From assembly GCA_037042915.1 (NCBI GenBank), contig CM073195.1, positions 2,976,001 to 3,040,000 on the forward strand: a stretch of DNA of 64,000 bases, in the 5' to 3' direction. The stretch is from Auricularia sp. M13 (lineage: Eukaryota > Basidiomycota > Agaricomycetes > Auriculariales > Auriculariaceae). A program made the position numbers and the translations under genes. This document shows, in pieces, positions 1,072 through 38,395 of the stretch (position 1 is the first letter of the stretch; every line of letters starts with the position of its first letter). The notes beneath the pieces are model-generated. The model had not been told where the DNA came from. It was given only the letters and a program-made list of their open reading frames with translations, and did not search any database.

Positions 1072-1326
1072 TGTGAGTGGGAAAGAAGAGGTCCTGACAG
1101 AAGAAGACAACAAGAAGAGGGCGCTGGGTGGCGCTGAGAAGAGGATCTGCAAACAAAAGGTGGGGCCGCGAAAGAAGAAGGCAACAAGACAACAGCGGAG
1201 TCCGATTTGCGCGACAACGACCAAGCGCTCAGGGCCTCGGGCAGGATAATTTTGGAGGGAAGCATGCATTTGTAGCAAGAATAGAAAATGTGCAATATCC
1301 TAAGTCTAATGTTCAAGCTAATTACT

Positions 1327-2632
1327 CTATACAAGCCACTGATCCTTCCAAATTCCTCGCACAAAGCTGAATCCGACCACCTTTTCGGAGGGGGCCCAAA
1401 GGCCACGGCGCACCCACACATCACTCCAGTACCGTCCCGTGAAGAGCAGACATCCCCACGCCCAGAAGCACGTGGGTACAGTCTGCCAACGCGCAGGCAG
1501 GAGACGTCGCGAAAGCGGTGCGATGGCCAGCCACTCGATGACGAGGCAGAGTGGTTGAAGGAGGAAGAATTTGAGGATGGATCTATCCCACAAATATGGG
1601 TGTGCGAAGTCCTCGTTGGTTTCTAGACGATGCATGAGCAAGACATGCAATCCGGCAGACAACCAGAAGATGGTCAGCATGCGGGCGACGCGGCGCGCTC
1701 CGCGTCCAGCGTTCTCGGGAAATATCCACAGGACGAGGAGCGAGAGTCTGTCGAACGAGCGCCGGAATATGGAGTGCCACCTGTTGGTCCACAGGTCTGC
1801 TAGCGATGTCGAGGAAAATGGCGAATTGAACATCGGCGGCCAGCCTTCGACCGGCGCGCCGCATGCGACGCAAAGGGCGGAGACGAGGCTGAACTCTACC
1901 ACGATGGCGGTTATCGTTCCCACGCACACCGAAAAGGTAAATGGCATCTGTTCGTACCAGGGCAGCGAGGTAACGGGGTGCATGAGCCGCGTGTCCCAGG
2001 GCCGCGACTTGTTGAGCGTATCGAAGGCGTCGATGACAAAGTACTGCAGCACGAAGCTCGCCAGCATTTGGCGTACGTAGCGCCAGCGCGAGCGGTCCAT
2101 GGCTTGCTGCTGCTTCAGTGTCGTGGGCGCTATCCAGTCCCAGTTCGTGTCGGGAAGCCAAGACGTGCCGCGGAGAGATGTCGATAGGTCTACAGCGTAG
2201 ACCGCGCGCCACAGTAGGCTCGTTGGCATGGGTATCTCCTTTCCTGAACGAATTGAGACCCAGCGCGGAGGAGCACTGTCTCGCAATCCGACCAGGGCGC
2301 ATTGGACTGTTTGCATGATTCCGTACAAGCCAACCTGCGCCACCGGGAGTTAGTTTCTCGTGGATGCAAACGTCAAAAGCACGTACCACGCACATGCCCA
2401 CGTTCGTCAGTCTTCCAGGCGCAGAGTAGTCGCCATACGCAAAATCGTAGAAGAAGTACAGCGCCGGCGGGGCTAGCAGCAGACGAATGAGACGACCGCT
2501 GGTGGCGGTCGCTGAAGACAGCGTCCAGGTTGCATTGGCAAGGCAAAGGAGGGCGATGGCAATGACGACGGACGGAAACGAGGCCACTGGGATGCGAAGG
2601 CCGCCAATAAAATCTGCTGGCTGGATCGCCAT
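1327..2632 (-). CDS. Wax-synthase-like membrane-bound O-acyltransferase (MBOAT)
   Basis: Two exons (2632-2387 and 2334-1327) are joined by a 52-bp intron with a CTAAC branch site. The protein of about 417 residues has several hydrophobic segments, the first beginning RIPVASFPSVVIAIALL. Near residue 280 it carries SLADLWTNRWHSIFRRSF, which matches the D-x-W-x-x-R-W-H motif of wax synthase-domain acyltransferases. A histidine in a hydrophobic stretch (WLSAGLHVLLMH) follows, as expected for the catalytic His of MBOATs. Such proteins transfer acyl groups in the ER membrane; in basidiomycetes related genes sometimes act in terpenoid or lipid modification. The substrate cannot be told from sequence, and no terpene synthase lies nearby. 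Its promoter and first exon are partly duplicated at 28.5 kb. Confidence 0.85.
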
Positions 2633-2860
2633 GAAGAACGTGTCCAAGGCCAAGGCTGTGAGTAGTGCAGCTCGCCGCCCGCCCTGAGCTATACTAGCGC
2701 AAACAGTGGCCCGGGCTCAGTCGCGTAAACGCCGTGCGTCGTGCATTCTGACAGTCTCTTCTGAGGTTCGCGGCGAGGGGCGGCGGAGGTAGCGGGAACT
2801 GCCGCAGTCTAAACGCTGCAGGGCTGCTGGTCCTGTGCCCAGATGCTCTGGAAAAGGCAA
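2537..2860 (-). repeat. Source copy of circularly permuted inverted duplication (order X-Y)
   Basis: Read on the minus strand, this stretch has block X (2860 to about 2801, starting TTGCCTTTTCCAGAG and ending GACTGCGGCAG) followed by block Y (about 2800 to 2537, starting TTCCCGCTACC and ending CTTTGCCTTGCC). Y contains the wax-synthase promoter and the start of its exon 1. Both blocks recur at 28481-28812 on the plus strand, but there Y precedes X. By eye about five base differences separate the copies. Confidence 0.9.
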
Positions 2861-3225
2861 CACCGGCGGCCGCACTCGCACCTGGGAATGAAAAGGGAAG
2901 ACACTGTCCCACCACCGGAGAGTCTAGACAACACAGACCCTTCCCTTCCTCCGGCGCCGAGCATCGAACGGAACGACGAAGGTTCGACGCTCAACCAAGC
3001 TATTCTCAGTCTGAAACCGAGGTGGTGAACGTGGAACCTACAGTATAGTAACAGTAACACAGCGACAGGCTTTGCTTGCAGTTGCAATTGCAGTAGCAGT
3101 TGTACATTTGCACAGTACAGCAGTGAAAGACTCGGTTCTCGCCACCAAGAGCGACTCGTACTCGGACAGCATTGTATCTGCAAGTTGCCACCCAGTGTTA
3201 CCAGCCTCCTCGACTGAGGTCCCAG
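2861..3225. other. Intergenic, no gene seen
   Basis: This stretch separates the wax-synthase upstream region from the PP2C stop codon. It holds a CAGTTGCA/TTGCAGT-rich low-complexity patch around 3060-3115. No coding frame with splice support was found. Confidence 0.6.
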
Positions 3226-5030
3226 TCAAGAAATCATGCTGGACGAGACGATCTGCGGCGGCGCCCTGAGGAGTATGCCCGCGCCGCTCGGCGCGCGACC
3301 CGTCTTGACGTCCTCCCAGTGCACCTTGGCCTCGGCGAGCGCCTCGGGCGCAAAGAACGTCGGGAGGTCCTCCGGCGTCGGGTGCCCGTCCTGCGCGTCC
3401 ACACGCTTCTTAATCTCCGCCGCCCAGCTCTCGTACGACCGTCCGTGCAAGAGCGCAATCACGATTACCGTCCTAGGGAGAGACATTAGAGTGACGAGAG
3501 CAGAGGGGAGGGTCGCACGCACATGTTGTCGCACCCAATTCCACCGTATTGCGGCGCAAGACACGCCTCGATCAGGCGTTCGCAGCACTCCTGTAGCGAC
3601 GCGCCAGACGCGACCTGTCTGCGCACGGAATCGATGACCTGCTGACTGGACAGCACGTCCCAAATACCTGCAAGATAGCGGCCGTCAGCGCTGCGATGAG
3701 GTCATCGAGCTACAAGCCGCAACGGTCAGCTAGCCACGATCAGCCAGGTAGAAGCCCGCGAGTCGCTTGTACTGCGGCTTGTAGCTCCAAACAAATTGCA
3801 CTGACCATCGCATGCGAGCACGACGAACTCGTCGTCGTCGGTGACGCGGTGCGATTTGACCTCGGGAAAGGCGGTCACGATCTGATCCACCGGCGACAGG
3901 TCGCGGCGCTGCTTGTAGAAGAAATCGCCCATCGCGCGGGCAGGCGCTACCCAGAGTTGTGAGACATTCTTGCAATAAAGAGGACGATTGCGAACGTACC
4001 CAAGAGACCTACCGAGAAAGGTCAGCTTGACAGCAGAGGGAGGAACGCGTCGGGTACACACCGTTTACTCTGTTGTCCTCGGTGACGAAGCCGCCCGCGT
4101 TTATAATGCGGGCTTTCTCCGCTGCAAAAACGCGTCATGGGCTTCTGAACGCGTCGTCAAAAAGCTCAGCATACCCTCCAAGTCCGGTCTATGGTCGATG
4201 CTGAGCGGTTCGGCGCGTCCCTTCGCGCTGAGCACGCATCGACTGTCGCCCGCATTCGCCTAATCGGACGCGGCAATAAAGAAGGGGAAAGAAAAGAGTC
4301 CTTGCATCAATGATTCAAGCCGCGCGCCACCGAGGGACGGGGAGGCCCGTACCACATGCAGCTCGTTGTCCGTCGTGTATAATATCGCAATGGCCGTCGC
4401 ACCGCCCGAGTCCTGTCCCAGATTATTCGCTGTCATGACGCGGTCAGAGGTGACTAGCGCCGACGTCTAGGCCCGAGTATGACGCACCGCGGATGTCGGC
4501 GTCGGTGTCGAGGAAGGCGACCTCGAGTGCGCGCGCGTATTCCTTGCGCTTGTACGAGTCGTATTCTTTCAGTTTCCGCCAGACATGCTCGGCGGCGAAG
4601 GACGAGATCGTGCCCTCGTCTGCTCGCGTGCTCAGCACCACCAGGAAATGCGCCAGGCGGCATACACACCGGCATGGCCGTCGAACACGCCAAAGAACGT
4701 GTTCTCGTCGCCCTCGCCCATGCGGAGCACGGTCACGTGCGCGTCCTCCATTCCTGCGGTCGCTCGCCAGTCAGCGCGAGGAAAGGGGCCTCGCCAACGC
4801 CCAGCGCTCACCGTCGCGCCAGCCCTGCATGCTGCCGACTGCATAGGCCACGCGTTTGTTCTGGCCCGTGTCGCAGCGTTTCTCGGTCTCTGAGACCTGC
4901 GCTGAGCTGCGCCACACTTGCACCATTACGGGCTCACGCTACCTGGTGCTGACGGTGCTTGGCCCTGCGCAAGTCGCTCGTCAGCGGCTTATACGACGGC
5001 GGACTGGGAGCAGCAGCGCAGGCTCACCAT
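3226..5030 (-). CDS. Protein phosphatase 2C (PPM family, Ptc2/Ptc3-like)
   Basis: This is a multi-exon Ser/Thr phosphatase that depends on Mn/Mg. Motifs appear in the canonical order: [27 protein letters not shown] (metal Asp), [62 protein letters not shown] (split by an intron) and GIGCDNMTVIVIAL. All metal-ligand Asp positions are therefore present. The inferred N-terminus is [10 protein letters not shown]; Gly2 makes N-myristoylation possible. The start Met is alone in its exon (ATG followed directly by GTGAGC), and a 27-nt exon (4964-4938) follows. The C-terminal extension after the core ends at 3226. The short exon around 4030, between DNRVN and ARAMGD, was not resolved. Likely roles are stress or cell-cycle dephosphorylation in nucleus or cytosol, by family. 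Confidence 0.9.
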
Positions 5031-5284
5031 GGCTGGGCGGGGCAAAGTCGGGGGGAAGGGATGGAAGTGGTAAGAGCTCAAGGAGCCTTGACAGCGCACA
5101 CGCGTCATAGCTGCCGGTGGCGCATCATCCTCAACTTCTGCTCCCAGCTCAGCTTGTCTCGCCCGCCCGTCGCTTGCAAGTCCAGAGCATGTACGTGTAA
5201 GATAGAACAGAACAGGCGTGACGGGGTCATTACATGCGAGATGGCGGGGCTACGGACAGACAGGTCCTTTCTCAGACTCAGAGC

Positions 5285-7152
5285 TCAGACATCAATTAGG
5301 TTCTCCTCCTTGGCCGTGTTCTCCGTCGTCGTCGCCGTCTTCGTCCGCGTCGGCTTGCGCTGGTAGAACTCGGCGATGATCTTGGGGCTGATGCGGTTGA
5401 GCTGCTCCTTGGGGAAGATACGCAGCAGGCTCCATGCGAGGTCGAGCGACTCGAAGATCGTGCGGTTCTCGTACGGGCCCTGGCCCACGAACTCCTTCTC
5501 GAACCGCTCCAGGAACTCGAGCGCGAGCTTGTCCTCGGGCGACAACGCCTCCTCGCCCACCACGGCCTTCATTGACGCCGCGTCGCGCCCGATCGCGTAC
5601 TTGGCGTACAGCTGGTTCGACACGTCGCCGTGGTCCTTGCGCGTCAGCTTCTCGCCGATCGCGCTCTTCATCAGCCGCGAGAGCGAGGGCAGCACGTTAA
5701 TGGGCGGGTAAATCTGCCTGTTGTGCAGCTGTCGGTCGACGGTAATCTGGCCCTCCGTAATGTACCCCGTCAAGTCCGGAATGGGATGCGTGATGTCTGC
5801 CACTGAATTAGCCAAATCGACAGCAAAAGGCGGCAGACATGCGCGCTCACCATCGTTGGGCATGGTCAGGATGGGAATCTGCGTGATGGACCCGTTGCGG
5901 CCCTCCACACGCCCAGCGCGCTCGTAGATGGTCGACAAGTCCGTGTACATGTAACCGGGGTACCCACGCCGGCCGGGCACCTCCTCGCGCGCGGCCGACA
6001 CCTCGCGCAGCGCGTCGGCGTACGAGGACATGTCCGTCATGATGACCAGGACGTGCTTCTCGAGCTGGTACGCGTAGTACTCGGCCGTCGTGAGCGCGAG
6101 ACGCGGCGTGATGATGCGCTCGATGGTCGGGTCGCTCGCCAAGTTGATGAAGAGCGTGACGCGGTCCAAGCTGCCGTTCTCCTCGAAATCGCGCGTGAAG
6201 AAGCCGGCCGTCTCGCGGTTGACACCCATTGCGGCGAAGACGATGGAGAAGTTGTCCTCGTGCCCGTCGTGCACGCCCTTGGTGGGCCCCTTGACCAGAC
6301 CTGCCTGTCTGCAGATTTGTGCTGCAATCTGGATCGCAAATAAGTTGCTGAGGAGTCTCTGGAGTTCATGAAACACATACTTCGTTGTGCGGCAGACCCG
6401 CCGCCGAGAAAATAGGGATCTTCTGGCCACGGGCAATGGAGTTCATGGCGTCGATGGTCGAGATACCAGTCTGAATCATTTCCTCGGGGTAGATGCGCGA
6501 GTACGGGTTGATCGGCGAGCCTTAATTCGTTCATGAGCACTCGTCGGTGCTAGCGCTAGCCGCCAGGACACACCGTTGATGTCGAGGTAGTCCTCAGCAA
6601 AGACCTTGGGGCCCTGGTCAATGGGGTTACCGGAGCCGTTGAAGATGCGGCCCAGCATGTCCTCCGCGACGGGCAGCTTCATGCTGCTGCCGGTGAACTC
6701 AACGTGGGTCGCCTTGACGTCGACGCCGGTCGTGCCCTCGAAGACCTGCACGATGGCCTTCTTGCCCGACACCTCCAGCACCTGCCCGCTGCGCTTCTCG
6801 CCGTCGGGCAGCGTCAGCTGTACAATCTCGTTGTACGACGCGAACTACGGCCCAAGTCGTCAGCCCGAGTCGCGGCGGTGTCCAGCAGCTATACCTTGAC
6901 ATTATCAAGCACGACGAGCGGGCTGAAGCGCAGTTAGAAAGAGCCCTATGCCAACGTAGTTTTAGAACTGACCCGTTCACAGCAGATACTGTTCTATAGT
7001 CTGCAATCGCGTCAGTGGCTGTATGACGACGGGGACCCGTAACGAGAGCAGCAGCGCTCACCGATCCGGGGCTTGACTTTGTACTGCTGCGTTACGGCCG
7101 CAGCATTAATGGCTGCAAGCTCGGCGTCGCTGATGCGTGGGCTTCCAGGCAT
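5285..7152 (-). CDS. VMA2: V-type proton ATPase subunit B (V1 sector)
   Basis: This encodes the non-catalytic nucleotide-binding subunit of the V1 ring, which pairs with subunit A to drive acidification of vacuoles and endosomes. The N-terminus [20 protein letters not shown] is the family start. Next come [86 protein letters not shown] and [17 protein letters not shown], then the tail ENLIDV. Introns interrupt it near 7060-6840, 6580-6520, 6390-6300 and 5850-5800. The sequence looks intact at about 510 residues, the family's usual length. The 5' flank faces the 3' end of an F-box gene in the same orientation. Confidence 0.97.
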
Positions 7153-7261
7153 GACGGCGCGCGGTAGGAGATACTGAAAACGGAGAAGCGGTACGGATAT
7201 GTTTACTTCCGGCGTCGGCACTTCGAGTACAAGTGGAATGTGTCGAAGTTGGCATTGATTC

Positions 7262-9480
7262 GTTGTAGGCCCGTGTATACTCCTAATGTTACAGAAATAA
7301 GGCGAAAGCAGCACATACAGCAAATAAAGCATATGGATGTCGACAGAAATGAAAGCAGCAGGATCGGAAAGTGTAGACAGCATCGTAAGCTTGAAACCAG
7401 CGCGATAGGCGAAAGCGTGAACACGAATGGGATCATGAGGATGGCGAACAGATAGGAGGCAAAGAACAATCAAGGGGACAGGTGGCTAAGAGTTCGTGGA
7501 GGAGAATGTGGGTGGGAAATAGACGCGTGTAGAGGAGAAAGGAACAGGGATCCATCATATATACCACAGAGATACCAAAGTCAGTGTAGAGATGTCGTAA
7601 GCAGGGTCGTTCGTGAATGGATGCCAGATGGCGGATTGGAGCGAAGGCGCAGGTCGCACGTCGTGATCGTAAGGCAGCTCAGGCGACGAGCCATGTGGCT
7701 CAGTAGAGGTCGTGGTCCTCGACGAACCGGGCCCGCCAGACACCGTCATCGTAGTTCTCCCAGATCGCAAACTCGCCGAGGCGGAAACGAACGAATTCAG
7801 GGCAGAAGAGCGACCACTCCGCCAGAGATTCGTGCACCCAGCACTCATACTGGCGGAGGGAATCTGCGGCGGGGACTTCGTGTTGTGTAAATGAACCAAG
7901 GACGAACGTCTGCAGCTTCGGCATTGCGGTACCGTGCCGACGATAAAGGCTGTTAAACTGCCAGGGCTATAACGAGGAGTAAATGAGATGTGCCGAGAAT
8001 AGTCTGAGAGGAGTGGATGTGGCGAGACGTACGCAGGTGCAGTGCATATCTGGGATTTTGATCTCGAGGATCTCCACATTGCCAATAACCGGGCTGATGA
8101 GGTCCAGCAATTCCAACGGCTCCATGTCCTCGTAGCTCGCCATGTACGTGAAGATGGGCGGGAGCGCGAGCTGGCGCTTCTCCATCCAATTCACCAGCGA
8201 GCCCATCTCGCGCTTAGCACGCGCTGGGCTGCGCTGATCGTACGGGTAGACCTCCAGGGTGGTTAGAAGCTTGTTCCTCAGCACGCTTCGAGCGCAACCT
8301 GTTGCGCAATAGAAACTATGCAGGAGTGGACAGCATTCATCCAGCGAGTCCAGCACTTTAACCCACGGCGAGACGCGCAGCCGCAGTGCGCGCGGACAGA
8401 GCCGCATGAGCCGGTTCATCCAATTGAGCATCTCCTCGCGAGTGTAGTTGCCCGAGTTGCAAGTTTCGTAGATAGAGAACGAGCGCGTGTCATTCGTCAG
8501 GCACAAGTCGACGAACGGGAGCATGACGCCGTGCCGCTCGGCGTACTCGACGATGTGCTGCATGAGCTCGGTGCTGTTCGTATTGAACGTCCTGACACGC
8601 CGCACGTCGACTAGAGGGAAGCAGCGCAGAGTGCTCTCCCAGTTTAGATCCCGAATCGACAGCTACAGAGGATCGAATTAGCCTGCAGTTCGAGCACAGT
8701 AGACAAAGGCATACCTTCGAAGGCGATAACAGTGGAACAGCATCCACGTCCACGTAGTCCACATTGATAGAGCAGTTATGCAGGTGCAGAATGTCCAAAT
8801 TATCAAGACTCCGAATCATGTAGTACGCGAAGTTGTCCAAGCGCGCCTCGTGAATGCGGAGTGAATGAAGGCGAGTCATGTCAGGCAGCATCCTCATCAC
8901 CTCGTCGATGAGGAAATGATGATATGTATGATGTCCGTACGGATCGTGCGCCGGGCAGGCCCACTCGGTGAGCGAGAGTTCGGAAACCGCACGGCGGAGA
9001 TGGACATTATGGAGCAACTTGGCCGCGCGGGTGATCGTCAGCTGCTTGTCCCACATCATTTCCTGGTCGATGCGTATGTGGATGTGCGGGCCTTGAAGCT
9101 CAAGCCTTCTGTACAAAAATATTTCGAAAAGTTGGAACAGGTGGCTGCAGGTCGACATGACCGCGACCAAGGTCTTGTAACCCAGTTGTTCATCATCTCG
9201 CAGATGATCCACGACGCACTCCCAGACATCGAACGGCAGCTTGGTCACAGGGGGGGTTCGCGGGGGCTTGACCACAGTATACGAGGGCTTCAAGACGGCA
9301 CAGTCAGACTTCTCGGCCGAGTGGGGAAGAGCTACGGTAGCAACCATGGCGCGGAGGAGGATCGGAAGATATCGGAGGAGAGGCGGGCGCGCAGAGGGGC
9401 TAGCAGGCTCCTGAGCGAGAGGGGGCGAGGACAAGAAAGCAAGTCGGGGTTCGGAACCAGTCCGGAACCTTCCTATCCAT
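7262..9480. repeat. Segment shared with 34128-35165 (F-box gene duplication, complete copy)
   Basis: From the shared string GTGTATA(C/G)TCCTAATGTTACA near 7267 through the F-box gene and its 5' leader (GGGGCTAGCAGGCTCCTGAGCG near 9400), the sequence matches 34128-35165 in the same orientation with many substitutions. The second copy has an internal deletion of about 1.2 kb. The shared region extends about 430 bp past the F-box stop codon. Confidence 0.8.
7700..9347 (-). CDS. F-box-like protein with divergent LRR region
   Basis: The inferred protein starts MVATVALPHSAEKSD. Near residue 35 it has an F-box-like segment (TKLPFDVWECVVDHL ... GYKTLVAVMSTCSHLF) of the kind common in Agaricomycete F-box families. 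The rest contains irregular LRR-like units (LHSLRIHEARLDNFAYYMI, LDILHLHNCSINVDYVDV) and ends with ARFVEDHDLY. Introns lie at about 8714-8662 and 8035-7930. F-box proteins recruit substrates to SCF ubiquitin ligases; the substrate is unknown. The family is large and turns over quickly in mushrooms, and a decayed paralogue is present at 34.1-35.2 kb. Confidence 0.8.
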
Positions 9481-18944: not shown

Positions 18945-19542
18945 CATGACTAAGTTCCTCAAAAGAAACTATACAATAAGTCATACTTACCACCTTCGCC
19001 AATCAATCGGTCATCGGAACCACTCGCAACCGTGGTAAGCCTTTTTATCGGAGGGCACGAAGGGATACAATGTTCCACGGGAACCTCTCGGAAGTGTTAT
19101 ATTGTCAATAGGTACTGACCAGATTGACAGAGGCATGCAAACCGGATTAGAGTTCGTCGATGTTCGGGAACTTCGAGGTTGTAAACTTCAAAGAGTGTTT
19201 AACTCTATTATAGTAACGAAGTCTTGGACAGTACACCGTCCACAGCGATTGGATACCCTAGCTCAAGACCTGTTATCACATTGGTTCTATGGGAGTTTGG
19301 TCTATTAAGTGGACATGTCCATGTCAAGGTGATCATTCGATGTTCAGGTTGGCATTATGCCGTGCCCTTCGGCGCAGTCTCATCGGCAAATTCAAATCCT
19401 GGAGTCATTCGCCACGTGCTGTGAATTCTCCACATATTGTAAGTGAGCCCAGCTGTGGGTAGACCTAGTCTCCTTCGCAGACTTTGATGTTCGAAGATAA
19501 TCGTTCGAAGTAAAGTCTGCATCAATACGCGCCCCCCTGATA

Positions 19543-19785
19543 GAGAGCCCCCAATTCGGAGGCAATCGCTGATCCGCCCTGATCCGTGACCAGCGCTTAG
19601 TTCTTTGGGACGGTCGTGTGCTTCGTAGAGAAGTCCCAATCCTGCAGGCGGACAGCACAACCTGAGATGAGTTGCAATTCCCCTCGAATTCCCATTTGAA
19701 ATATAGGAGAGATTTTATTTTGGCGACTTGGACACGACGCGTCTGGATCACGTGCATCACGGCCCCAGCCGAATTGGGGGCTCTC
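19543..19785. mobile_element. MITE-like element with 17-20 bp terminal inverted repeats
   Basis: ATAGAGAGCCCCCAATTCGG at 19540-19559 is perfectly inverted at 19769-19788. If the flanking TA on each side is the target duplication, the element is 243 bp with 17-bp TIRs starting GAGAGCCCCC, as expected for a non-autonomous Tc1/mariner-type element. There is no transposase frame inside. Family assignment rests only on the TIR and TA pattern. Confidence 0.65.
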
Positions 19786-20290
19786 TATTAGGCAGGTGTG
19801 ATTTGATACAGACTAGGGTAGACCCTGTGAAGAGAACAGCGCCTTGCCAAGGCGGGCTCACGCTCGTTGTTCATTGTCATCGGTCTCACGGTAAGGGTTC
19901 ACCGTGCCAAGAGTGAGTTTTTTGCACGCTGTCGAGATCAATTTCCAGTGAGTCCGGTGCATCCGTCTTCGACCGTCGGCGAAGAATGTCCCGATGGCAC
20001 TGCCCTTCGCTTCCCGTCAAGCGATTTACCTCGATGTGCAGGTATAGAAACTATCACATACTATGCTACCTGAGCGGGGTATCAAACAGATGGGTCATCA
20101 AACAGAGTGTATCGACCGACTGACCTATCATTCTTTCTTGGTATGTATCCTGACCAGTGAGGTCGAGTCCAACAGCACCGCAGGCACTCGCTTCAACACG
20201 CCGGCCACCTGCCAAGAATCTCGGTTGATCGTCCTCTCAGCGGAGGTTCTGCCATTCCCAAGGGGCCGTCAGAATTATATTTTAGTATAT

Positions 20291-20629
20291 ACCGTCAGAA
20301 TTTTCCGCAAGCCTGAGCTCGCTGGACTAACTAACTATATGACGTCACTATTACCCAAAGCGGTAACTCCGCTGTCACCGAGTTGGTTCCGAGCTGCCAA
20401 ACTGCCAGCCTCAGTGTCATCCGACTGTCAAAAGACCTGACATCCCACTCCCACTGGCAAAGACTACCCAGTACTCTACCTTGAATACACAGGAACTATG
20501 TCATCAGTCAGAGCTCACTTCTTCTGTGTCTGCCAGGGCATCTCAGGACTGTCCCAGGGGCAGAAGTAGTATCAAGCAGAATTTTTCGTAACGGCCTGAC
20601 GGCCGGACTAACTAACCAACGGCATATCA
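20291..20629 (+). repeat. Imperfect direct repeat pair around GGACTAACTAAC
   Basis: Two stretches of about 50 bp (20291-20342 and 20577-20629) share CAGAATTTT(T)C, a CCTGA core and GGACTAACTAAC in the same order. The nature of the repeat is unknown. Confidence 0.4.
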
Positions 20630-20741
20630 CGGGATCAATTGCTGACCGCCCCTTGGCCATTCCAGCCCGAAACGCCGGATACTCTGCGTGATGAGCGGTC
20701 TACGACTGAGCGCCCACTCTGAACCAACAGCCTGCAGGGCC

Positions 20742-22455: not shown

Positions 22456-24962
22456 TCATTCGAAAACCTCGCTCAGCTCGCGCGGTCTTCCTGCGCGTAC
22501 CGAGCCCGTGTTGTCAGCCGCAGCCGGCGAGGACTGTGCACTCGGAGGAGTGAAGAAGCCCGAGGCGGTGACGCTGACCGCCTCGACGGCCGCACCGGTC
22601 GCCTTGCGCAGCGTGCCCACGGTCTTGCCAATGGTGATCGACCCGCGCCCGCCATTCGCATTGACGGCCCGCTCGATGCTGAGCATAGAACGGCTCTTGC
22701 CCCGGATGGTACCCGACAAGGTACCAGAGCCATTCGCTTCACCACCGTACAGCGAGCGCGTGCCAGCGATGCCACCACTGGGCGACGCGAATGCCGATGA
22801 TATGGGCATTGCGCTAGGCGGCGTGGACATCACGCGATAGCGCCCCTTGCCGCCGGCGCCCTGCGCAGCCGCCCACGACGAGGGCGGCGGCGACGCAGGC
22901 TTACTCGGGCCGACCTGCATGACGAGCATAGACGCATCCGAGGACACATCGGACAGAGCCTCCTCGGCGGGCGGGACCTCCATGGAGTTGCTCGCCGTGA
23001 GGCCGACAGCCTCTGCGCGGTCGGGAATATCGTCGAAAATCTCGAAATACCGCTCGATGCAGACCTTGATGACGCCCGCAAGCGTCATCTTGCCCTCCGA
23101 ACCGCTGCTGCTCGGTATTTGAACCTGGCCAGGGAAGAGCGCGGGGCCGGCCATAAAGCACATCGCGACGTCGCGCGCGGGATTTGAACCGGCTACGAGG
23201 TTCGGCGCCAGGACGATGGCAAGATTGTGTGCGTCCATCTTGTTCACCGCTGACCGCAACGACACGTCGTGCATTAGGTCTAGGTTGATGTTAGATCATA
23301 CGGCTAGGGTATGAAAATGGTGATGGCTCACGCAAGACATAGCTCAGCAGGACGACGGCGGCATGCGAGTGCAAGGCTGGTAATATGTATTCGCGAATGT
23401 ACTCGACGGCCGCCAGGTCTGACGGATCGTCCGAAGGAATTGGACATCGCCTGATGATTCCGTAGCTTTCCTCTGGTACGATGGGTTCTGGTAGATCTTT
23501 GAGGAATTTCTTGAGGAGTACCGCGGCTAAATGTGGGTCACGATACGACTCCAAGGACACGGGATGCCCTGCATCAGGGTCAATCTCTGTGAATTCCCCA
23601 CGGGGAGTATTTACCTCTGTCGTACGCTTGCTTCGCCTGATTCAACATAACAGTGTTAGGTGACCTTCGAAAGAGGCCCTCGTCGGTCATGCCTGGGCAG
23701 CATAAGGAAGGATGCATTGCAGCATAGAAAGCACCAACCTGTTTGCCGCAAGAATTGTACGCAGTCCTTGACAACGCGAGGAATGCCGCCCTTCTCGCCG
23801 TCTACGCCCATCAAATCCTCTATCGGCACGCCGAAGAGATTGGAGCGGTTGGCCACAGGCAGGGTCACTTGCTTTTCATATTTCAAGTTTTCCCTGTCAA
23901 TCGTTAGATGTTGCTCTAGAAAGTTTTGCAATGCGCGTACTGGTAAACGGCGGGCGGGATATCGATCTGGGTCAGCGGCACATGCTGTGCCAGAGCGCTG
24001 AGGGTGTTGAGATACTGAATCTTGCGGAAGAACTTCGGGCTGGGTGCTCGTGTTAGTCCACTCACACTGACGCTGTTTGGCATGGTCGAACCTGACAACA
24101 GCGCCAGCAAGCGATATAAGCACTGCGACCGCATAAGCAATGCGGTATAGACGCGACGCAGGGGATGCCGACTTTTAGAGAACCATGTCGAATGGACGAT
24201 ATACTAAATAAACCACAGCTATCAGCATGCGCACCTTGGTCGTCATCTTGGAAAGCTCACCAGTTTCTTCAGATGCTTTCTATACTTTCTGCTGAGGCTG
24301 CGGTAGGCCTTCCATATCCAGTTCCAGCCGGGCGTGTGCTTGTTGCCGGCGGCGAGGAAGACGACTGTATAGTCGGACTCGACTGCACGACGAGGAGTCG
24401 CGACTTCAGCCGGGCTTACATAGGACTTTCAGCAAGAGATGTTCGAGCGCACCGTATAAGTCGAGATAGGAAAGAATGCGACTGGGCAGTTGGTCAATGC
24501 GTGCAGTTAAAGCGGCTCGCAGGCGCATTGACGCACGTCAAAAGCAGGTCATATGACACCTCGCGAGGGTCTGGGAGGGCGCAGGCAGATATGACGACCC
24601 TAGACGAGCTCAGCACCTGTCTTCCGGAGAGCCCAATGCTCTAACGCACATAGGTCTTGTCCTGCCGCCCGCAACTGCGTCAGCCAGCACACACAGCCGC
24701 GGCAGCGACGCACGCACTCAAAGTCGACGCCAGCCTGGAAGATAAGCTTCGAGATGACCTCCTGGAGCTTCTCCTGCGAGCCATCAAGCTCTTCGGACTG
24801 CGAGCGGCCGCGCTTGGGTCCCCACGTCGGAAAGTAGCTCTTCCGCGGTGAATTGGAGCCCCCGGGCGGCGACAACGGCGTCGAGGGCGTCGACGCAGAC
24901 GTAGCAAGTTGGCCTAGCCGCTGCTTCAGCGACAGCGACACGGCGGGCCCACGCGGAGCCAT
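22456..24962 (-). CDS. Rho GTPase-activating protein with Sec14/BCH-like domain
   Basis: The N-terminal part is low-complexity and Ser/Pro-rich (SLKQRLGQLATSASTPSTPL). It is followed by a Sec14/BCH-type segment (PGWNWIWKAYRSLSRKY and SPKFFRKIQYLNTLSALAQH), as in p50RhoGAP. The RhoGAP domain has FGVPIEDL, DEGLFRRSPNTVMLNQAK (arginine finger in LFRRS), YRDPHLAAVLLKKFLKDLPE and KMDAHNLAIVLAPNLV, all expected catalytic-fold signatures. The long Ser-rich C-terminus ends GRPRELSEVFE. It would switch off Rho/Cdc42 GTPases at membranes during polar growth. Another in-frame ATG lies 36 bp upstream of the chosen start. About seven short introns interrupt it. Confidence 0.9.
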
Positions 24963-25184
24963 GGAGGTCAAGGGTCGGTGGAACGAAGGCAAGTGCAACG
25001 CACAGCCACATGCGGCTGTTGCCAGCTATGTCCGTCAAACTTTTCCTGACCGAAGCCTGTGAACTTTCGTGCAGAGTTGATCAGTCTGGCATTATGTGGT
25101 CATGAAACAGATACATGAAGCAGAGCGGTTATGTGGCAAAAATGAGTATCGTGTGCGTGTACAATGTAGGCGCGAACTCGGCGC

Positions 25185-28100
25185 TTATGCGGTAACCACC
25201 GACTGCACGACAATCATGCCCGCATGCAGATCAGACGCGACGAGGGCGGTGGCTACGTCTCCCAGCGTCTTCCGGACGTCAGAGTTAATAGCAGCGCCTC
25301 CACTCTTGACGCGCTCGTGCATGAGGGTCGTCAATTCGGCCTGGTGCGATTCCGTGGCTAAGCGCCTTGAGCGGCCGAGAAGGACCAGGAATCGCTGGTC
25401 GTGGGCGTGGGCCTCCTTCTGCTTGTTGTGTGCAGCCTCCGCTACGCTCTGGAGCGGGTGAGGGGTCCTTATAGTCGTGAGTTCGATGCGGGAGAGTGAC
25501 GCCACGACATTCGGAGGGTGGCTGTCGGATGGGTTCGAGTACTTCTCCCACATCATGTTGTCCGCCGTCTCAGACTGAAGGCGTGTCTGGGTCGTAACGT
25601 TTCCATACATGGTGTCGGCCACACCTGCAGTCTGAAGGCGCTCATATGAACACTAAACGTCAATCGCTGGGATCGATTTCACTCACCGAGATGACAGTAT
25701 CGCGGATGGGCGCCTTCTCGATCGTCACGTCGCTATTCACCGGCGTCAACCCCTCGGTCTTGACGACGCGCACCACGTTAGCGCTGACATCCGGGTTCGC
25801 GCACAGCTGCAGTACAAGCGAGAGCGCGAGCCGATCATCGGGACCTCCAAAGAACGGCAAGAACAGATGCTTCTTCCCGTGACGCCCAAACGCTCCCTGC
25901 GACGTCGCCGCGGAGCCAGGGTCGACGAACAGCGCGACATCAACAGACGAGGTCGCAAAAAGATTCCGGATGAAGTGCGAGTGGACAGCGGCAGACGCGA
26001 GATCAGAGCCACCACTCTTGAACATGCCTTCCAGCGGGTTCCCAGCTGGTCCACTGACACCAGGCTCGGACGGCGCAAGCAACCATGACGTGAGGAGCAT
26101 CTGCGAATGTACCTCGCGGACGTGTTCGTCCACAGACGTGGCAAACGAGTCGTACGGTACGACTGCGAGCGAACTGGAGACCGGGAAATCGTTGATGCCA
26201 CCGAACGTGCGGAAGACGGTGATGAGGGGATCAGTGTGCAGGAGCGTGTCTGCGGTCGCGCTCTTCATGACGGCAGAAGTACGGTCTGATAGTTCAATGA
26301 GACGAAGAGCATCGACACGGGAACGCTGGATCTCTTTGCGCTTGGCGTCGATAGGCAGTGGCTTCTGCTCAGGTTGGAAGAGTTGTGTCAGAGACATCCT
26401 GCGAAAGAATTAGTCGAGTTGTTTAGTCCGACGTTGAGAAACTCACACAGCGGGGAGGTGTTCGATCTTGTCAAGAACAACAGTGAGCTTGAGCTTCCAA
26501 GAATCCTCGCCATCCTCAGTCCAGTCGCTGGACCTCTTGATGGGTGTGCCAGTAGACTCAGACGGCTCCTCAAGATTGATCCTGCCGCCATTGACCTTGG
26601 TGTGATACTTCGGAGGGTAGATGGCCTGCACGAGAGGGCTCGTGCAGAACGTCAGCGTCAGCGCCTCAATGACAAACATGGAGAACAGGCGCTGATGAGA
26701 ACAATCAGCCTAGGAGCAGTGACGCATTGAGGGAAAAGCATACCGTGTCGAGAATCCCAGCCGTAAGGCCAACATTCAGGACAATAAGCTCAACCAAGCT
26801 TCGAAAACGTGAGAACGACATCGAGTCGGTGGCAAAAGTATGCATACCCCTTGCAACTCATCAGAGTACCAACAGCGAAGGCCTCACGCTTCTTGAAACC
26901 GGCGAGACGGGCAGCGGTAGAGCACCCAGTGAACTTGCCGGTGAAATCGCACACGCAGATAGTGACAATGAATCCCCACGTGATACCTGGTAGCATGTCA
27001 ATGGTGGAGGACAATGGGTAAACCGCAACGGACCAGAGTTGAGAGTCCCAAGATCGGTGTTGAGTCCACTGAGAGCAAAGTACTGGTGACGTGAGAAACA
27101 TTCAAGCATGTCTCAGGCAAATGCTTACGAGCGGCAGCATGAGGAGCATCACAAAATCTTCAAGCTTCTCAGTAATGTGGATGTTGAGGTTGCCCTGCCT
27201 CGGCACGCTAATGCCGACGAGGAAACCGCCAAAGATGGGATGGACGCCGCTAACATCAAGGTAAGCGCGCTGTAACGTATCAAGGCGTGGGAATACTTGC
27301 ATGATATCGGTGAAGAATGCACTTGCAAACATGAACAGGAGGACGGTCGTGACGAAGAAGGGCGTGGGACCATTCTCCGTTGAACCGGTCTTGCGTGCCA
27401 GCCAGCGGATGGTCAGGCGGCCAGGGAAGAGGACAAGGAGCGCCCACGCCACTGTCGCCATCAAGATCCAGAGCGCGGTCAGGCCGCTTTCAGCATTAAC
27501 CAAAGCGACCGCGAGAGCGAGGAGGATCCAGCCCACGATATCTATATCGGGTGAGATTTGCATGTCTGGAAAGGAGTAAATAAATGTACGCACCGTTGCC
27601 AACACCGGCGGACAAAACCACCACGCCCACAGTGGTGTCGAGGAGTTGAAGCTCGGTAAGAATGCGACACAAGACAGGGAACGCCGTAATTGCGAAGCAT
27701 ACGCCCATGAACAGGAGGAAATGCGGATAGGAGGTGTCCTTGTCGACGAAGTGGTGGTAGATCGCCCGAGACAGCGCAGCTCCAATCCCGAACGGCAGTA
27801 TCATGCCTCCCATCCTACAGCGGATAAGCGTGAGGAGCTGCTGTCTTGGCAGTTGCGCAAACGCACCCGATGATGACGGAAAGCCTGATATTACGTCTGA
27901 GGAAGGTGGTGTCCAGTTCGAGGCCGACGATGAACAAGAAGAGCACAAGGCCGACGTTCGCGACAAGCGCCAGGTACGGGCGAGAGTCTTTGGGGAAGAC
28001 ATGCTGCGTGAAGCCTGGGATGTGGCCACAGACGGACGGGCCAAGGAGAATTCCGCCAATGACCTCGGCGATGACCTTGGGCTGGCGGATGCGGCGCAGG

Positions 28101-28379
28101 AAGAGGCTGAGCACCTGGGTGAACACGAGGATCACGCCGAGCTGGATAATGAACAGGCGAATCGGGTTCTTTGGGTCGTACACGGTCGGGTCTGCGCCGC
28201 TGATGAGGCCGCCCTGGAGCCAAGTTGAAGTCGGTAAGTACGGGCATGCAGAAGCGCGCGTCGGGGCGCACCTGGTCTGGGGCCTTGGCCTTGGTGTCAT
28301 TGGCGGCATCTGCGCGGGCGACAAGCAGATTGTAGGCGCCGGCGACGACCTCCAGGCTCGTCCGCGAGAACTCCTTCAT
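25185..28379 (-). CDS. K+/H+ antiporter, CPA2 family (Kha1-like)
   Basis: Exon 1 (MKEFSRTSLEVVAGAYNLLV ... KAKAPDQ) is spliced to GGLISGADPTVYDPKNPIRL, the conserved start of fungal Kha1 antiporters. The membrane part follows with VIAEVIGGILLGPSVCGH, LVLFLFIVGLELDTTFLRRN and GIGAALSRAIYHHF, then about a dozen hydrophobic segments. The long cytosolic domain includes FLPFFGGPDDRLALSLVLQL (a universal-stress-protein-like nucleotide fold in this family). It ends with FLVLLGRSRRLATESHQAE and GDVATALVASDLHAGMIVVQ. Kha1 proteins exchange K+ for H+ in Golgi or endosomal membranes. About nine introns are inferred; the total is near 900 residues. Its start lies about 100 bp from the inserted wax-synthase fragment at 28481-28812. 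Confidence 0.92.
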
Positions 28380-28480
28380 GACAACGGAGGAGACGGGGAC
28401 AAGAGCAAGCTGCCAGGAGCGGACTTGGGAATCATCCTCTTGGTTTAGTATGACAAGCCGGCGCTAAGCGGTACAGGCGC

Positions 28481-28812
28481 CAGTTCCCGCTACCTCCGCC
28501 GCCCCTCGCCGCGAACCTCAGAAGAGACTGTCAGAATGCACGACGCACGGCGTTTACGCCACTGAGCCCGGACCACTGTTTGCGCTAGTATAGCTCAGGG
28601 CGGGCGGCGAGCTGCACTACTCACAGCCTTGGCCTTGGACACGTTCTTCATGGCGATCCAGCCAGCAGATTTTATTGGCGGCCTTCGCATCCCAGTGGCC
28701 TCGTTTCCGTCCGTCGTCATTGCCATAGCCCTCCTTTGCCTTGCCTTTTCCAGAGAATTTGGGCACAGGACCAGCAGCCCTGCAGCGTTTAGACTGCGGC
28801 AGAAGGGCATAT
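28481..28812 (+). repeat. Derived copy of the wax-synthase promoter and exon 1, order swapped (Y-X)
   Basis: Block Y (CAGTTCCCGCTACC ... CTTTGCCTTGCC, 28481-28745) is immediately followed by block X (TTGCCTTTTCCAGAG ... GACTGCGGCAG, 28741-28812). They overlap in TTGCC. At 2537-2860 on the minus strand the order is X then Y. The left edge GCGCCAG and right edge GCGGCAG differ by one base and resemble the X/Y junction in the source copy. Confidence 0.9.
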
Positions 28813-29150
28813 ATTATTGTCGGCGCACTGCAATAGGCTATTTCTGTGCTCACGTAAGCCGCACAGGAGATCGCGAAGATCGACGTTTGTGCCCAGTTTG
28901 TGGGTTCGCGTACGACATGCTGTCCTTGTGTCGCGGTGAGCGCGGGGCCAGACATACGTATCTCAGATTGCCATTCAGTGAGCATGTGTGTGCGACGTCA
29001 GCCACGCTGTGCCGGGGGACACGGTATTGGTTGCAGTGGCATTTTGGCACTGGCAGCTCGGACAATGTGAGGAGGGAGAAGTCAGTCGCGGGTTCTCACT
29101 CGCGTCAAACATCACATGATACGCGTGGATTGGCTGGGGGTGCTGAATAG
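28650..29150 (+). other. Chimeric open frame seeded by the duplicated exon
   Basis: The copied start codon opens a frame that begins MAIQPADFIGGLRIPVASFP, identical to the wax-synthase N-terminus including its first hydrophobic segment. It then runs into unrelated sequence and stays open to 29150, about 166 codons in all. The copied block also brings the upstream region of the source gene. Whether it is transcribed is unknown; the downstream half has no recognisable domain and several Arg/Cys-rich stretches typical of non-coding DNA. Confidence 0.3.
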
Positions 29151-29151
29151 C

Positions 29152-29159
29152 TATATATA
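29152..29159 (+). promoter_or_regulatory. TATA box of the secreted-protein gene
   Basis: TATATATA lies about 75 bp upstream of the ATG at 29232, with an ATTGG (CCAAT-complement) motif about 20 bp further upstream. Confidence 0.5.
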
Positions 29160-29231
29160 CTGGCCGCGAGACGCAGTGGAGCTGCACCCCAGCCCTTCCC
29201 ATACGACTTAGTAGTAATCCCTCACCGAATA

Positions 29232-30032
29232 ATGTTCGCTCAAGCCCTCCTCGTCCTCTTGCCCCTTGCCGCCGCGGCGCCAACGACGCCGTCAGGGTGG
29301 AGCTTTGCGTTGCGCTCGGTGGCGCGCAAGGAGCAGGTGTGGACGCGCCGGCAGGCGGGGGAGACGGTGTTCAACATTGGGTGCACGGCGTTCGGGCCCG
29401 CGCAGGACCCCGTGTTCGTCGACGCCCCGAGTGCGGTGACCACGTTCTTCAATGGCTCTCAGGCTGGGGGGTCGTGCGCGGCCAGTGTGCAGAGCAAGTT
29501 CACGTGTGTGCCGGCGACTCAGCCGCAGCAGACGGCGTGCTCGTTCGACGGCGCGCTGGCCGTCTGGGATGCTGGTACGTCCGCGCCGCTGTGTCCTTTA
29601 TTGTTGATTGATAGCTTATTCATGCATGCAGAGTCGATGGACTGCTTTGCGCGCGATGCGCTCGTGGAGGCCGTCCAGAGCACGTGCGCGGCGGGCGGCG
29701 TCACCGATTGCGGATGCGGCGTGTACGTCGCGTTGCCGCTGAGTCGTAGCTTGTGAGACTTATTCGCTGTGCACAGGTACAAGGACCTCGGGGAGAGCCA
29801 GTGCCTCGTGGCCTCGTTCACGTACCACCTCTCGGGCCTGGCGGTGGTCAACGACGCCGGGTTCGTCGGCGAGCCCGTGCCGTCGAACGTAACCGTCAAC
29901 GCCGCGCCGACGGAGAGCAGGAAGCGCGACGTGCTTGGGCCGTCGTATAACGACCTCACCGTGTGCGCGTTCAACAACAACGGAGACGTTACGGGATGGT
30001 GCGAGGGTGCCGAGACCCATGTATGCCAGTGA
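29232..30032 (+). CDS. Secreted cysteine-containing protein, function unknown
   Basis: Three exons (29232-29574, 29632-29722, 29777-30032) give 229 residues with consistent phases. The signal peptide MFAQALLVLLPLAAAAP is followed by a dibasic-containing region (RRQAGETVFN) that could be a propeptide site. The mature part has about ten cysteines, in GGSCAASVQSKFTC, SMDCFARDALV, GVTDCGCGVYKDLG and the end GWCEGAETHVCQ. A second dibasic-type site, SRKRDV, is near residue 195. No family was recognised. Size, signal peptide and cysteines suit a small secreted or effector-like protein. It lies downstream of the duplicated promoter fragment. Confidence 0.8.
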
Positions 30033-30282
30033 TCATGAACTGGTAGTCGACTGGGGAAAATGACAGTCACGGACTGACGGACTTGCTTACGGACTACATA
30101 ATGATATGATAGGACACTTACGCACGATACCACATGAATGTACTTAGCAAGTATCGTAGTATGCTTTCTCGCGACAACAGATATCTCCGCGGCATTTGTT
30201 CCGGATACGGAGATAGAAACTAGATCCGACGAAAGCACATCTTGCACCCGAACGTCAACGTCCACAGCGCGAGTCACGCGCC

Positions 30283-33095
30283 ATGGTGCGTCTGTCTACC
30301 GCGCGCGTCGCACAGCGCGTTTTCTGAGCTCTGCAACCCGCTGTTATGTTAGGCACGATGCAAAGCGTGTTCGAGCTCGCACATCGAGTCAGACGGCGCG
30401 ACGGGCACCTCGTACTGCCAGGACTGCGGCGTCGTCTTCGAGGAGAATGCTATTGTCGCAGAAATTACCTTTGGCGAGACTGGCTCTGGCGCGGCCATGG
30501 TCCAGGGCTCCTACGTCGGCGCTGGCTCTGGTGCGTTTACAGTGCCCGCTGGCTGCTCGGATAGCAGTCTTGGCTGACTTGCGTGCAATGCAGCGCGCGC
30601 GCGAATGTCCGGAATACATGGCCGGAATATGGGCGGCGAGTCGCAAGAGCAGACTATGGAGAACGGTGCGACTGCCGTGGCTTCGTCGTCGCTGCACGAT
30701 GTCTGACTCAGGTTCCAGGACGGCGCAGAATTCTGCAAGTCGCGTCGGCCATGCATCTGCCAGAAACCATAGCAGAACGCGCTCAACGCTATTTCAAACT
30801 TGCGCTCGGCACTGGGTTCGTCAAGGGCCGCAAGAGCCTTTACGTCGTCGCGACATGTCTCTATGTCGCCTGCCGCCAACGCAAGACCAGCCATATGCTT
30901 ATTGACTTCTCCGACATGCTCCAGGCAAGTACTATTCTTTGCTATACTATTCAGCATCATTAATGGCTTCGCAAAGGTCAACGTCTTCTCCCTCGGCCGC
31001 ACCTATCTGGACTTCATAAACGAATGCCACATCAGCAAGGCCGACCTCGAGCTCATCGACCCGGCGACCTACATCCACCGTTTCGCCTCGCTACTCGAGT
31101 TCGGGGACGAGACGTCGCGCGTAGCGTCAGACGCCGTGCGGCTCGTGCGCCGCTTCTCGAGCGACTGGATGGTCTTCGGCCGGCGGCCGTCGGGCATCTG
31201 CGGCGCGGCGCTGTTGCTCGCCGCGCGCATGAACAACTTCCGGCGCAGCGTGCAGGAGATCATCCAGGTCGTCAAGATCGCCGACACCACCATCCAGAAG
31301 CGACTCGAGGAGTTCAAGCAGACGCCGTCCGCCGCGCTGACCGTCCATGACTTCCGCAATATCGACTTGCAGGACCAGATGGACCCGCCTGCGTTTTACC
31401 AGGCTAAGCTGCGCGAGGAGAAGCTGGCGAAGAAGCGCCGGCGCGAAGAGGATGGCGACAGTGGGAGCGAGTCGGAGGATGCTAGCGACGACGAACAGCG
31501 GCCGAGGAAGAAGGCCAAGAAGAAGAAGGGCCGCCGCGCGAAGAGTAAACGCAAGGGCAAGGAACGGGATGACAGCGAGCAAGATGCTAGCGGTTCGGAC
31601 GAGGAGGAGGCGGACGACGGCGACAAGTCGTCCACAAAGAAGAAGAAAAAGAAGAAAGACAAGGTGAAGAAGCGCAAGAGCAAGAGGAAAAAGGACGCAG
31701 AAGCGGACGACAATGCTCGCAAATCCGTCGAACCCCCTGCCCCCGCGCCTCCTGCCCCGGACGCGCCTGCTGCCGATACTACTGTTGCTCAGGACAAGAC
31801 GGATGAGCATGATAGCGATCTCGATGCGCCTGGTTCGCCCGTGCTCGAGATCGACCCGGAATTGCTACAGCAGGATGCCACTCGCTTCACAGCGGCGGCC
31901 ACGGCGCCAAGTGCTACAACCGCTGTTGCTTCATCTTCAACAGCGACTGCACCTCCTGCCACTCAGTCGCCCCTTACCGCCCCTACAGATACGCAGGCCA
32001 CAGCCGTTGACACCCCTCCGCTCGTCCCCGCTGCTTCGTCTTCCACCCGCTTCTCTCCATCTGCCGCGCCGCCTCCTCGTTTTTCCCCGCCAGCTTCGTC
32101 GCCTGCACCCAAGTCGCCGGCTGCGCAAACTCCTCTGTTTCTTCCCGGCACACCTGAACGCGACGTTGTCGAGCAGGTCAGCATGCCGGGCCATCTGCGC
32201 GACGCCGTGCGCGACAGCTCGCCCGATGCTACGCTTCAGGTCCCCAACACCGCAGAAGACGATGAGCTGGACAAAATGCTTGCGGAGCAGGTCAACGACG
32301 TCCTCAGCACGGAGAAGAGCGCTGCGGAACTGTCGATAGCCTTGGACGAGGCTGAGGCCGGACGCTCCATCGCTGTGGATGACGAGCTGCTCGGGCTGGA
32401 CGAGGAAGAGCTTGACGCGCTTATTCTAACGCCGGAGGAGGTGCATCTGAAGGAACGCATCTGGGTCGAGATTAATCGCGATTATTTGATCAACCTCGCC
32501 GGTATGTGGTCCTCATTTTCTCGGAGCTTTTTATTGGTGCGGTTTTGCTGAGTGGCATGTAGCGAAGATGGCGGTGGAGAGCGGAAGCGCGGAGGCGACC
32601 AAGCGCAAGGTTCGTATCCTGCACGGGACACAACTTTTGTTTATTCATAACTCGCGATTCGTGATGCAGCCGCGGAAGAAAGGCCAAGGCAATAAGCCGC
32701 GCGACTCGACGAACCCCATGGGCACCAGCCCGGCCGACGCGGCGCACAAGCTCGCGCAGAAGAAGGTCAGCAAGAAGATCAACTATAACGCGTGGTCCAC
32801 GCTGTTCGCGCGCGCACCTAGCGAGGGCAAGAAGTTCAACCCGGGCGGAAAGCAGATGTACACCATGGACGGGGACAAGACGGACGAGATGATGGAGATT
32901 GAGGAGGACGCCGCGGGGATGGGCGTCGGTAGCGGGCGGCGGCTTGTGGCCGACGATGACAAGGACGACGGCGACAAGGACGACGAAGATTATTATCAGG
33001 ACCCGAGCATGACCATGGATGCGGGCCTGCCTAACCGCGCGAACGACGACAAGGACGACGACAATTTCGGGTACGAGGAGGATATGTGGGGATAG
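30283..33095 (+). CDS. BRF1: TFIIIB subunit BRF1 (TFIIB-related factor)
   Basis: Seven exons (30283-30285, 30353-30530, 30594-30665, 30719-30924, 30977-32501, 32563-32609, 32670-33095) sum to 818 codons in frame. BRF1 positions RNA polymerase III on tRNA and 5S genes. The N-terminal zinc ribbon has CKAC and CQDCG. The two cyclin folds include RRRILQVASAMHLPETIAER, SLYVVATCLYVACRQRK, LGRTYLDFINECHISKADL and GRRPSGICGAALLLAARMNN. A long Lys-rich then Pro/Ala/Ser-rich linker follows. The C-terminal BRF homology block has PRDSTNPMGTSPADAAHKLA and NYNAWSTLFA, and the tail is acidic. The start ATG stands alone in exon 1, and intron 4 (30925-30976) has a GC donor, CAG/GCAAGT. Confidence 0.95.
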
Positions 33096-33988: not shown

Positions 33989-34127
33989 GGCGCGCTGGGG
34001 GCTGGTGTTGTGTGGGAGGTCGGGACGGAGTTGAGCGGAAATTTGCACCGCGAAAGCAGCCGTTGCAACGCTCAAGAACAAAATTCTGCATAAAACTCTA
34101 CAAAGAGAATGCAAATTTTCATTGTGC

Positions 34128-35165
34128 GTGCGTGTATAGTCCTAATGTTACAATTTTAAGAACGCGAAAGCAACAGACAGAGCAATTAGAGCGTAGATAG
34201 ATGTCGACAGAAGAGAAAGCTGGATCAGTACTCAATGCAACACGCATTTCATGCGACAGGTTGCATTGCAGGGCACAAAACAAAATAAGAAAGAAAGCAG
34301 GGTCAGAACATGTGGAGAGCGTCGTAACCTTGGAAAGCAGCGCGATCGGAGGACGAATGAGATCGCCAATGTGGAGGAGGGTGGTGTACAGATAGGAAAC
34401 GGCATGGTAAAGAGCACAAGGCTGTCGTGGAGAATGAGGTGGGCGAGGCAGGAATCTGCAGAGGAGATAAAAAATGGAATCGTTATCATATATGCCACAG
34501 AGAGATTGCAGAAGGTTGTGGGTCGCATGTGGGCGACGAACCAACATAACTTCGAATGGGCCAGGTGGTATGCGAAATCATCCGGACGCGCTTCATGGAT
34601 GCGGAGAGAACGTAGACGGGTCATTTCAGGCAGGATTTTCATCGTGGCGTCGATGAGAAAGTCGCGATAGTCGTGATAGCCATACCGATCTTCGGCCGAG
34701 CAAGCCCACTTGGTGAGCGAGAGGATGGACACTGCGCGGCATTATGGAACAACTTCGCCGTGCGAGCGACCGTTCGCTGTCTGTCCCACAGCATCTCCTA
34801 GTCTATGTGGATGCGAATGTGCGGGCTCTGAAGCTCAATCCTCCTGTACAGATGGATTTCGAAAGGAAGGAACAAGTGCTTGCAGGTCGAGATGACGGCG
34901 ACCAACGTCTTGTAGCCCAGTTCCTCGTCGTCTCCCAGATAACCCACGACGCACGCCCAGACATCGAATGGTAGCTTGGTCACAGGGAAGTTTCGTGGGG
35001 GGGGGGAGGTTTGGACAACAGCATTCGCAACACAGTCAGGCTCTTCGGCCGAAGCAACCCTGGCGCGGGGATGATCGGGTATGAGAGGGGGCTAGCAGGC
35101 TCCTGAGCGGGATGAGGACGAGGACAAGTTGAAAGCAAAGCGTCGGAGCCCGGAAGCTATCCTCC
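34128..35165 (-). pseudogene. Decayed, internally deleted paralogue of the 7.7-9.3 kb F-box gene
   Basis: The F-box segment survives (TKLPFDVWACVVGYLGDDEE, then GYKTLVAVISTCKHLFLPFE), as does part of the LRR region (MTRLRSLRIHEARPDDFAYH). They are in different frames, and sequence equal to about 7580-8790 of the intact copy is missing. The ATG region is disrupted by a run of about 11 G near 34998. The homology also covers the 3' flank of the intact gene (from 34128) and its 5' leader (to about 35165). The relic sits in the promoter interval between the uL6m gene and SDH1. Confidence 0.8.
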
Positions 35166-37709: not shown

Positions 37710-38395
37710 ATAATAACGGGCACGTTGTTCCTTCTGTGTTCTGTATATTGCCTTTTAGTCGCATCGAATCCAAGCTTTCTTTCTATTCCTTCTTAAGTGC
37801 TTGGCATGCTCCTTAAATGGACACAAGACTCAGCCTCGCGACGCTTCGGCACAATGAGGGGAAGGCTGAAAATACGATGATTAGACAGCGTTGGAGTATG
37901 AGGGAACGGCAGAGCACAGCTTATTCAAGCGTGGCGGCGGTGGGAAATACTATCGTCTCGGGCGCGTAGAGCAGAGGTAGAGACTTGGTCAACTGACAGC
38001 TATCAGATACGTCGAGGACACCACTGCGGCAGCAGTATTTATCTCAGTTACTGCAGCTGTGAGACACCGGAGACGGACGGACCTACGATACCGCTTGGGC
38101 CGCGGACGGTCATGGGTCAGAGCTTGGACCAGCTGGGTCAGTTGTGTATATAAGACAGCGGCAGTGAGAGCGGCCCACCGTCGGTCCTAGAGCAGACTAA
38201 GCATACATCGCCATTCCTAATGTTCGTCATATGGTTAATATAAGGGTTATTGCGGTTGTGCCAGTTGCTTTCGGACTGTCGCAGTCTGTCAGTGACCGGC
38301 TCCGTCCACCGCCTGTTCTGTCACTCCCGGTTCCAGTCTCAGACCTGCTGTGCGGAAACGACATTGACAGATGTCTCTCCTCTCTGGTCTACGCA
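37710..38395. other. Intergenic, F-box gene promoter
   Basis: It holds TATATAAG at 38147-38154, about 245 bp upstream of the assigned F-box ATG. No other gene was seen. Confidence 0.55.

Follow-up and report, generated by a model that had tools for sequence, protein, structure and literature searches.

A 319-bp duplication with swapped blocks in an Auricularia genome, consistent with re-insertion of a microDNA-sized circle

Introduction

In Auricularia sp. M13, the 5' end of a gene resembling wax synthases recurs in part about 26 kb away, in opposite orientation and with its two blocks in swapped order. What event could move so short a piece of DNA and permute it at the same time? The original prediction for this locus was that a DNA circle of ~324 bp had re-integrated. 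We investigated this in a window of 64 kb (contig 3, 2976001-3040000, of a 52.1-Mb genome in 14 contigs), asking how the copy is built, where else it occurs, and which routes of duplication its joints would fit.

Results

Geometry of the two loci

Pairwise BLASTN of the two loci returned two ungapped matches. Block Y, which comprises the 5' region and the first 32 codons of the wax-synthase-like gene (2537-2805, minus strand), matched 28745-28477 over 269 bp with 4 mismatches (E = 3e-138), and block X, the part upstream of it (2799-2860, minus strand), matched 28802-28741 over 62 bp with 2 mismatches (E = 2e-26). On the minus strand the source reads X then Y. On the plus strand the copy reads Y first (28477-28745) and X second (28741-28802), and the two blocks keep the same relative direction in both places. 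A second repeat finder gave the identical two inverted pairs, so the swapped order first noted was confirmed by two methods. With both loci as queries, BLASTN at E 1e-3 found no further match within the window.

The joints were then read base by base. In the source, X and Y abut with no bases lost or extra and overlap by the border heptamer GCGGCAG (2799-2805, minus strand), the presumed opening point of a circle. X begins with TTGCC (2860-2856) and Y ends with TTGCC (2541-2537); in the copy, Y and X overlap by this pentamer (28741-28745, plus strand). The new Y-X junction, presumably the point of circle closure, therefore lies on bases common to both ends of the source, as had been proposed. 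The outer edges of the copy correspond to the old X/Y border, with one mismatch. The right edge (28796-28802, plus strand; presumed circle-derived) reads GCGGCAG as in the source. The left edge (28477-28483, plus strand; presumed target-derived) reads GCGCCAG instead of the GCGGCAG expected at both ends, and because of this mismatch only CAG is unambiguously common there. The copy spans 28477-28802, or 28481-28802 when just the CAG of the left heptamer is included; of the limits first given, 28481 agrees with the second count and 28812 lies 10 bp too far to the right. Source and copy differ at six positions (one in the left-edge heptamer, three elsewhere in Y and two in X), one more than the about five first reported. 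Counting TTGCC once, the source corresponds to a circle of 319 bp; counting the heptamer once, the copy is also 319 bp, and it holds the sequence of the hypothetical circle exactly once around.

Two separate insertions, or a duplication followed by an inversion or deletions, could have given Y-X by accident, but the pieces would have had to meet with single-base precision at each border and no leftovers were found; we regard such an origin as highly improbable. We give even less credence to an assembly artefact. The joints are known here from assembled sequence alone, which speaks for keeping it in view, but the two copies carry six differences and the assembly places 52 Mb in 14 contigs.

Occurrence in the genome

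The genome was searched at the DNA level with the copy plus its flanks, and with the source plus its flanks (E up to 10); each search returned just these two loci. Since the search skips very common words, this is to be read as no repeat family seen rather than as proof of exactly two copies. Read in this way, the result led us to reject a transposon or dispersed repeat family, a possibility that had been named as refuting the original prediction; it also places the match beyond chance, these being the only two places found in 52.1 Mb. The flanks of the copy matched themselves only, and hence the assembly showed no second haplotype with an empty site.

A tandem array would be a further source of permuted pieces. 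According to this explanation, a transient X-Y-X-Y tandem at the source gave a Y-X piece, which was copied to 28.5 kb by any route of dispersed duplication, and the tandem was later lost. Backward slippage at TTGCC could make such a tandem, and a study of human duplications names this pattern as the standard false positive (PMC7188851). However, the piece would have needed excision at precisely the length of one unit, and no leftover block copies were found near either locus: no 12-mer of the source occurred outside the block in 1-8000, and in 24000-33000 there was one 13-base match, at 28282, which we took as chance. A surviving tandem array was therefore rejected for these stretches of this genome, and we consider the transient one improbable.

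A search for other permuted short duplications, suggested earlier for the whole genome, was run on 264 contiguous kb (~0.5% of the genome) by self-BLASTN with word size 16, a low-complexity filter and at least 75% identity. It gave 28 pairs of at least 40 bp. By position these were local tandem or neighbouring gene-family pairs, palindromes, a diverged pair 26 kb apart, an LTR pair and the present blocks, base-by-base examination being confined to the last two; no second permuted case was found among the 28. Of the 64 kb of the window, 60 kb were also searched against the genome, scoring the best 39 of 87, 39 of 41 and 7 of 8 candidates from the first look. Matches of at least 95% listed for those 60 kb comprised, besides the present blocks, three repeat families and one tRNA, and no second permuted case was among the matches listed.

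The 272-bp pair at 3110152 and 3120901 of contig 3 (99.6%) was considered as a comparable case and rejected, being the LTRs of an element that has relatives elsewhere and is flanked by a 5-bp target duplication. It belongs to an LTR retrotransposon (3110152-3121172) whose 272-bp LTRs are 99.6% identical and whose target duplication is GGCGG; a matching LTR and inner sequence lie on contig 1 at 145-152 kb. Also on contig 3, at 2899918-2900724, is an almost perfect palindrome of ~810 bp (96.5%) with repeats every 42 bp in both arms. Several dispersed repeats lie within the window itself. An element of ~354 bp (19465-19818) with 46-bp inverted arms (19514-19559 and 19769-19814, 83% complementary) occurs in at least nine other places at 95-99% identity, and in more below that; it is MITE-like and probably recently active. 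A repeat of ~400 bp (20259-20657) is matched along its length with 91-93% identity in at least five other places. A third, of ~430 bp (37823-38250), has several other copies that are ~0.1 to 1 kb longer at a single internal point near 37992, and the copy in the window may be an internal-deletion form. The stretches 7259-9456 and 34118-35155, ~26 kb apart on the same strand, are diverged paralogues (70-76% identity), and the frame tried in them had no Pfam match.

Source gene and direction of transfer

The presumed donor is a wax-synthase-like gene of the MBOAT_2 family (1327-2632, minus strand). Its product of 417 aa, with one predicted intron removed, matched PF13813 (E = 7.9e-13) and its reading looks intact. 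Such a protein, along with genes that have several short introns, suits a fungal and probably basidiomycete genome. The source segment lies at the 5' end of this gene and has a GC content of 61.4%, against 56.8% in the window. Because the relation between the two loci is symmetric, the permutation by itself cannot tell the donor; the outcome would look alike had a circle formed at 28.5 kb and entered the wax-synthase locus at TTGCC.

Three lines of evidence lean slightly towards the 2.8-kb locus as donor. The donor frame continues through 417 aa, and the copy leaves this frame after 32 codons. Of the differences between GC and AT, all four have AT on the side of the copy (a chance of 1 in 16 without bias). 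At the single coding difference the source has ATC where the copy has ATA; among 115 isoleucine codons sampled from six stretches, some with frames of uncertain status, 69 were ATC and 16 ATA. Paralogues gave no polarity: the alignment to the only one that the protein search yielded starts at residue 165, and a family search and the translations of its loci added nothing on the first 32 codons. Mutation of the RIP type was rejected, none of the six changes being CpA to TpA or its complement. A retrocopy of a circular RNA was likewise rejected, since the closure is not flanked by AG/GT.

Microhomology at the joints

Random joints were simulated on the 264 kb, with 200,000 segments of 200-400 bp for closure and 100,000 joints for insertion. 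Closure microhomology of at least 5 bp, the length of TTGCC in the source, was present in 0.63% of the segments. At the insertion joint, the observed match of six in seven bases was reached by 0.84% of random joints, a criterion that was set after the site had been seen, and at least three exact common bases by 5.6%.

We propose, as the probable explanation, that a microDNA-sized circle closed and then inserted next to a cation/H+ antiporter gene, both steps by microhomology. A stretch of 319 bp at the 5' end of the wax-synthase-like gene would have been copied and closed through its terminal TTGCC repeats by alternative end joining, yielding an extrachromosomal circular DNA (eccDNA) of microDNA size. 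The circle would have opened at GCGGCAG and inserted ~26 kb off in reversed orientation, with the target supplying GCGCCAG or, at a minimum, CAG for the match. The ancestral empty target would read TACAGGCGCCAGAAGGGC, or the same without CAG. Campbell-type insertion of a circle at a target match of 3-7 bp is expected to leave a border repeat on either side. The donor ends carry a short direct repeat of 5 bp, and at 319 bp the circle would have been of microDNA size (<400 bp). Circles have been reported in animals, fungi and plants, and for those <400 bp a route based on microhomology has been proposed (PMC11879418). Against a circle stands the mismatch in the left-edge heptamer, and the case is a single one. 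The eccDNA-mediated duplication first suggested is thus supported in part: the arrangement of the blocks, the 5 bp of microhomology at closure, the agreement in content at 319 bp and the finding of no third copy all fit it; the circle itself we infer.

Replicative template switching of the MMBIR/FoSTeS type would dispense with a free circle. Synthesis at 28.5 kb would jump at GCGCCAG to GCGGCAG of the source, copy Y as far as TTGCC, slip back 319 bp to the other TTGCC, copy X to GCGGCAG and return to the target. Common bases are present at every joint, as suits this route, and the target heptamer could guide both leaving and return, giving the exact 319-bp content. This route involves three switches, including one that must return to the landing base, whereas a circle takes one closure and one insertion, and no sequence feature positively favours it over the circle. 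Switching round such a loop, like copying from a transient tandem, would leave identical sequence. Since sequence alone cannot separate the circle from template switching, we hold the former as probable and the latter as a tentative second possibility.

Surroundings of the copy

The copy is intergenic. On one side lies the 5' part of the cation/H+ antiporter gene (27105-28379, minus strand), recognised by PF00999 on two frames, with its putative ATG 97 bp from the copy. The other neighbour is a plus-strand frame with its ATG at 29232 and no Pfam match. From the copied ATG, a chimeric open frame of 166 codons plus stop (28650-29150, plus strand) runs through X into the flank. A Pfam search with it gave no match, and 4.9% of the 2041 ATGs on both strands of the window open for at least 166 codons. 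An opening of this length is consequently not evidence of a gene, and a functional chimeric protein was rejected on these two grounds.

The copy is probably neutral debris, and a promoter effect is a possibility only. One could go further and suppose that re-insertion of microDNA circles is heritable in fungi and can carry a promoter along with its start codon, in which case the second wax-synthase 5' region here would drive the 166-codon chimeric frame or alter antiporter expression; we think this doubtful.

Discussion

Cattle colour-sidedness reportedly involved a segment moved via a circular intermediate (Durkin et al. 2012); that mammalian case is reported to be larger than the present one and accompanied by a phenotype. 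Three circle-mediated duplications have been described in humans, of about 20, 23 and 130 kb, in a data set whose blocks measured at least 500 bp (PMC7188851). Like these, the Auricularia copy consists of two blocks in the same direction and in swapped order, with no gap or overlap, and in both studies overlap with a coding gene served as an argument for the donor (PMC7188851). Unlike them, it measures 319 bp and has common bases at the closure and probably also at the insertion, whereas no evidence for local homology at insertion was seen in the human cases (PMC7188851). Takahashi and Innan expected that cases shorter than 500 bp had escaped detection (PMC7188851). Among titles and abstract openings, we found no earlier permuted duplication of <500 bp in the literature.

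A fungal parallel is region B of wine yeasts, likewise inserted into chromosomes with circular permutation (Galeote et al. 2011; PMC3053389). Region B is 17 kb long, horizontally acquired, carries a working replication origin and was inserted several times (PMC3053389), in contrast to Auricularia, where a single small piece of native DNA was inserted. Two to three common bases were noted at four of its six insertions, which were read as insertions of a circle; the authors favoured NHEJ and thought microhomology-mediated end joining unlikely (PMC3053389).

MicroDNAs (Shibata et al. 2012) are described as circles of 200-400 bp with genic and 5'UTR sources (PMC9694575, PMC10948907). They are free circles sequenced from cells, whereas the present locus would hold a chromosomal imprint only, and their source preferences are reported to vary by species (PMC9694575, PMC10948907). 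Microhomology accompanied ~7% of 200-400 bp circles in rice against 37% in mammals (PMC10948907), and in Magnaporthe, a fungus whose circularome has been measured, microDNAs were slightly enriched in genic sequence, with no enrichment in 5'UTRs or in GC (PMC9694575). These features of rice and Magnaporthe circles count against a close fit to mammalian microDNA.

Together, our results place the locus within a known kind of event, documented at 17-130 kb, and what is new is its size and the structure of its joints. It offers a base-resolved fungal candidate of less than 500 bp in which both joints can be read. Its signature, consisting of abutting swapped blocks, common bases at the new joint and the old border at the outer edges, could be used in any assembly to measure the heritable fate of microDNA.
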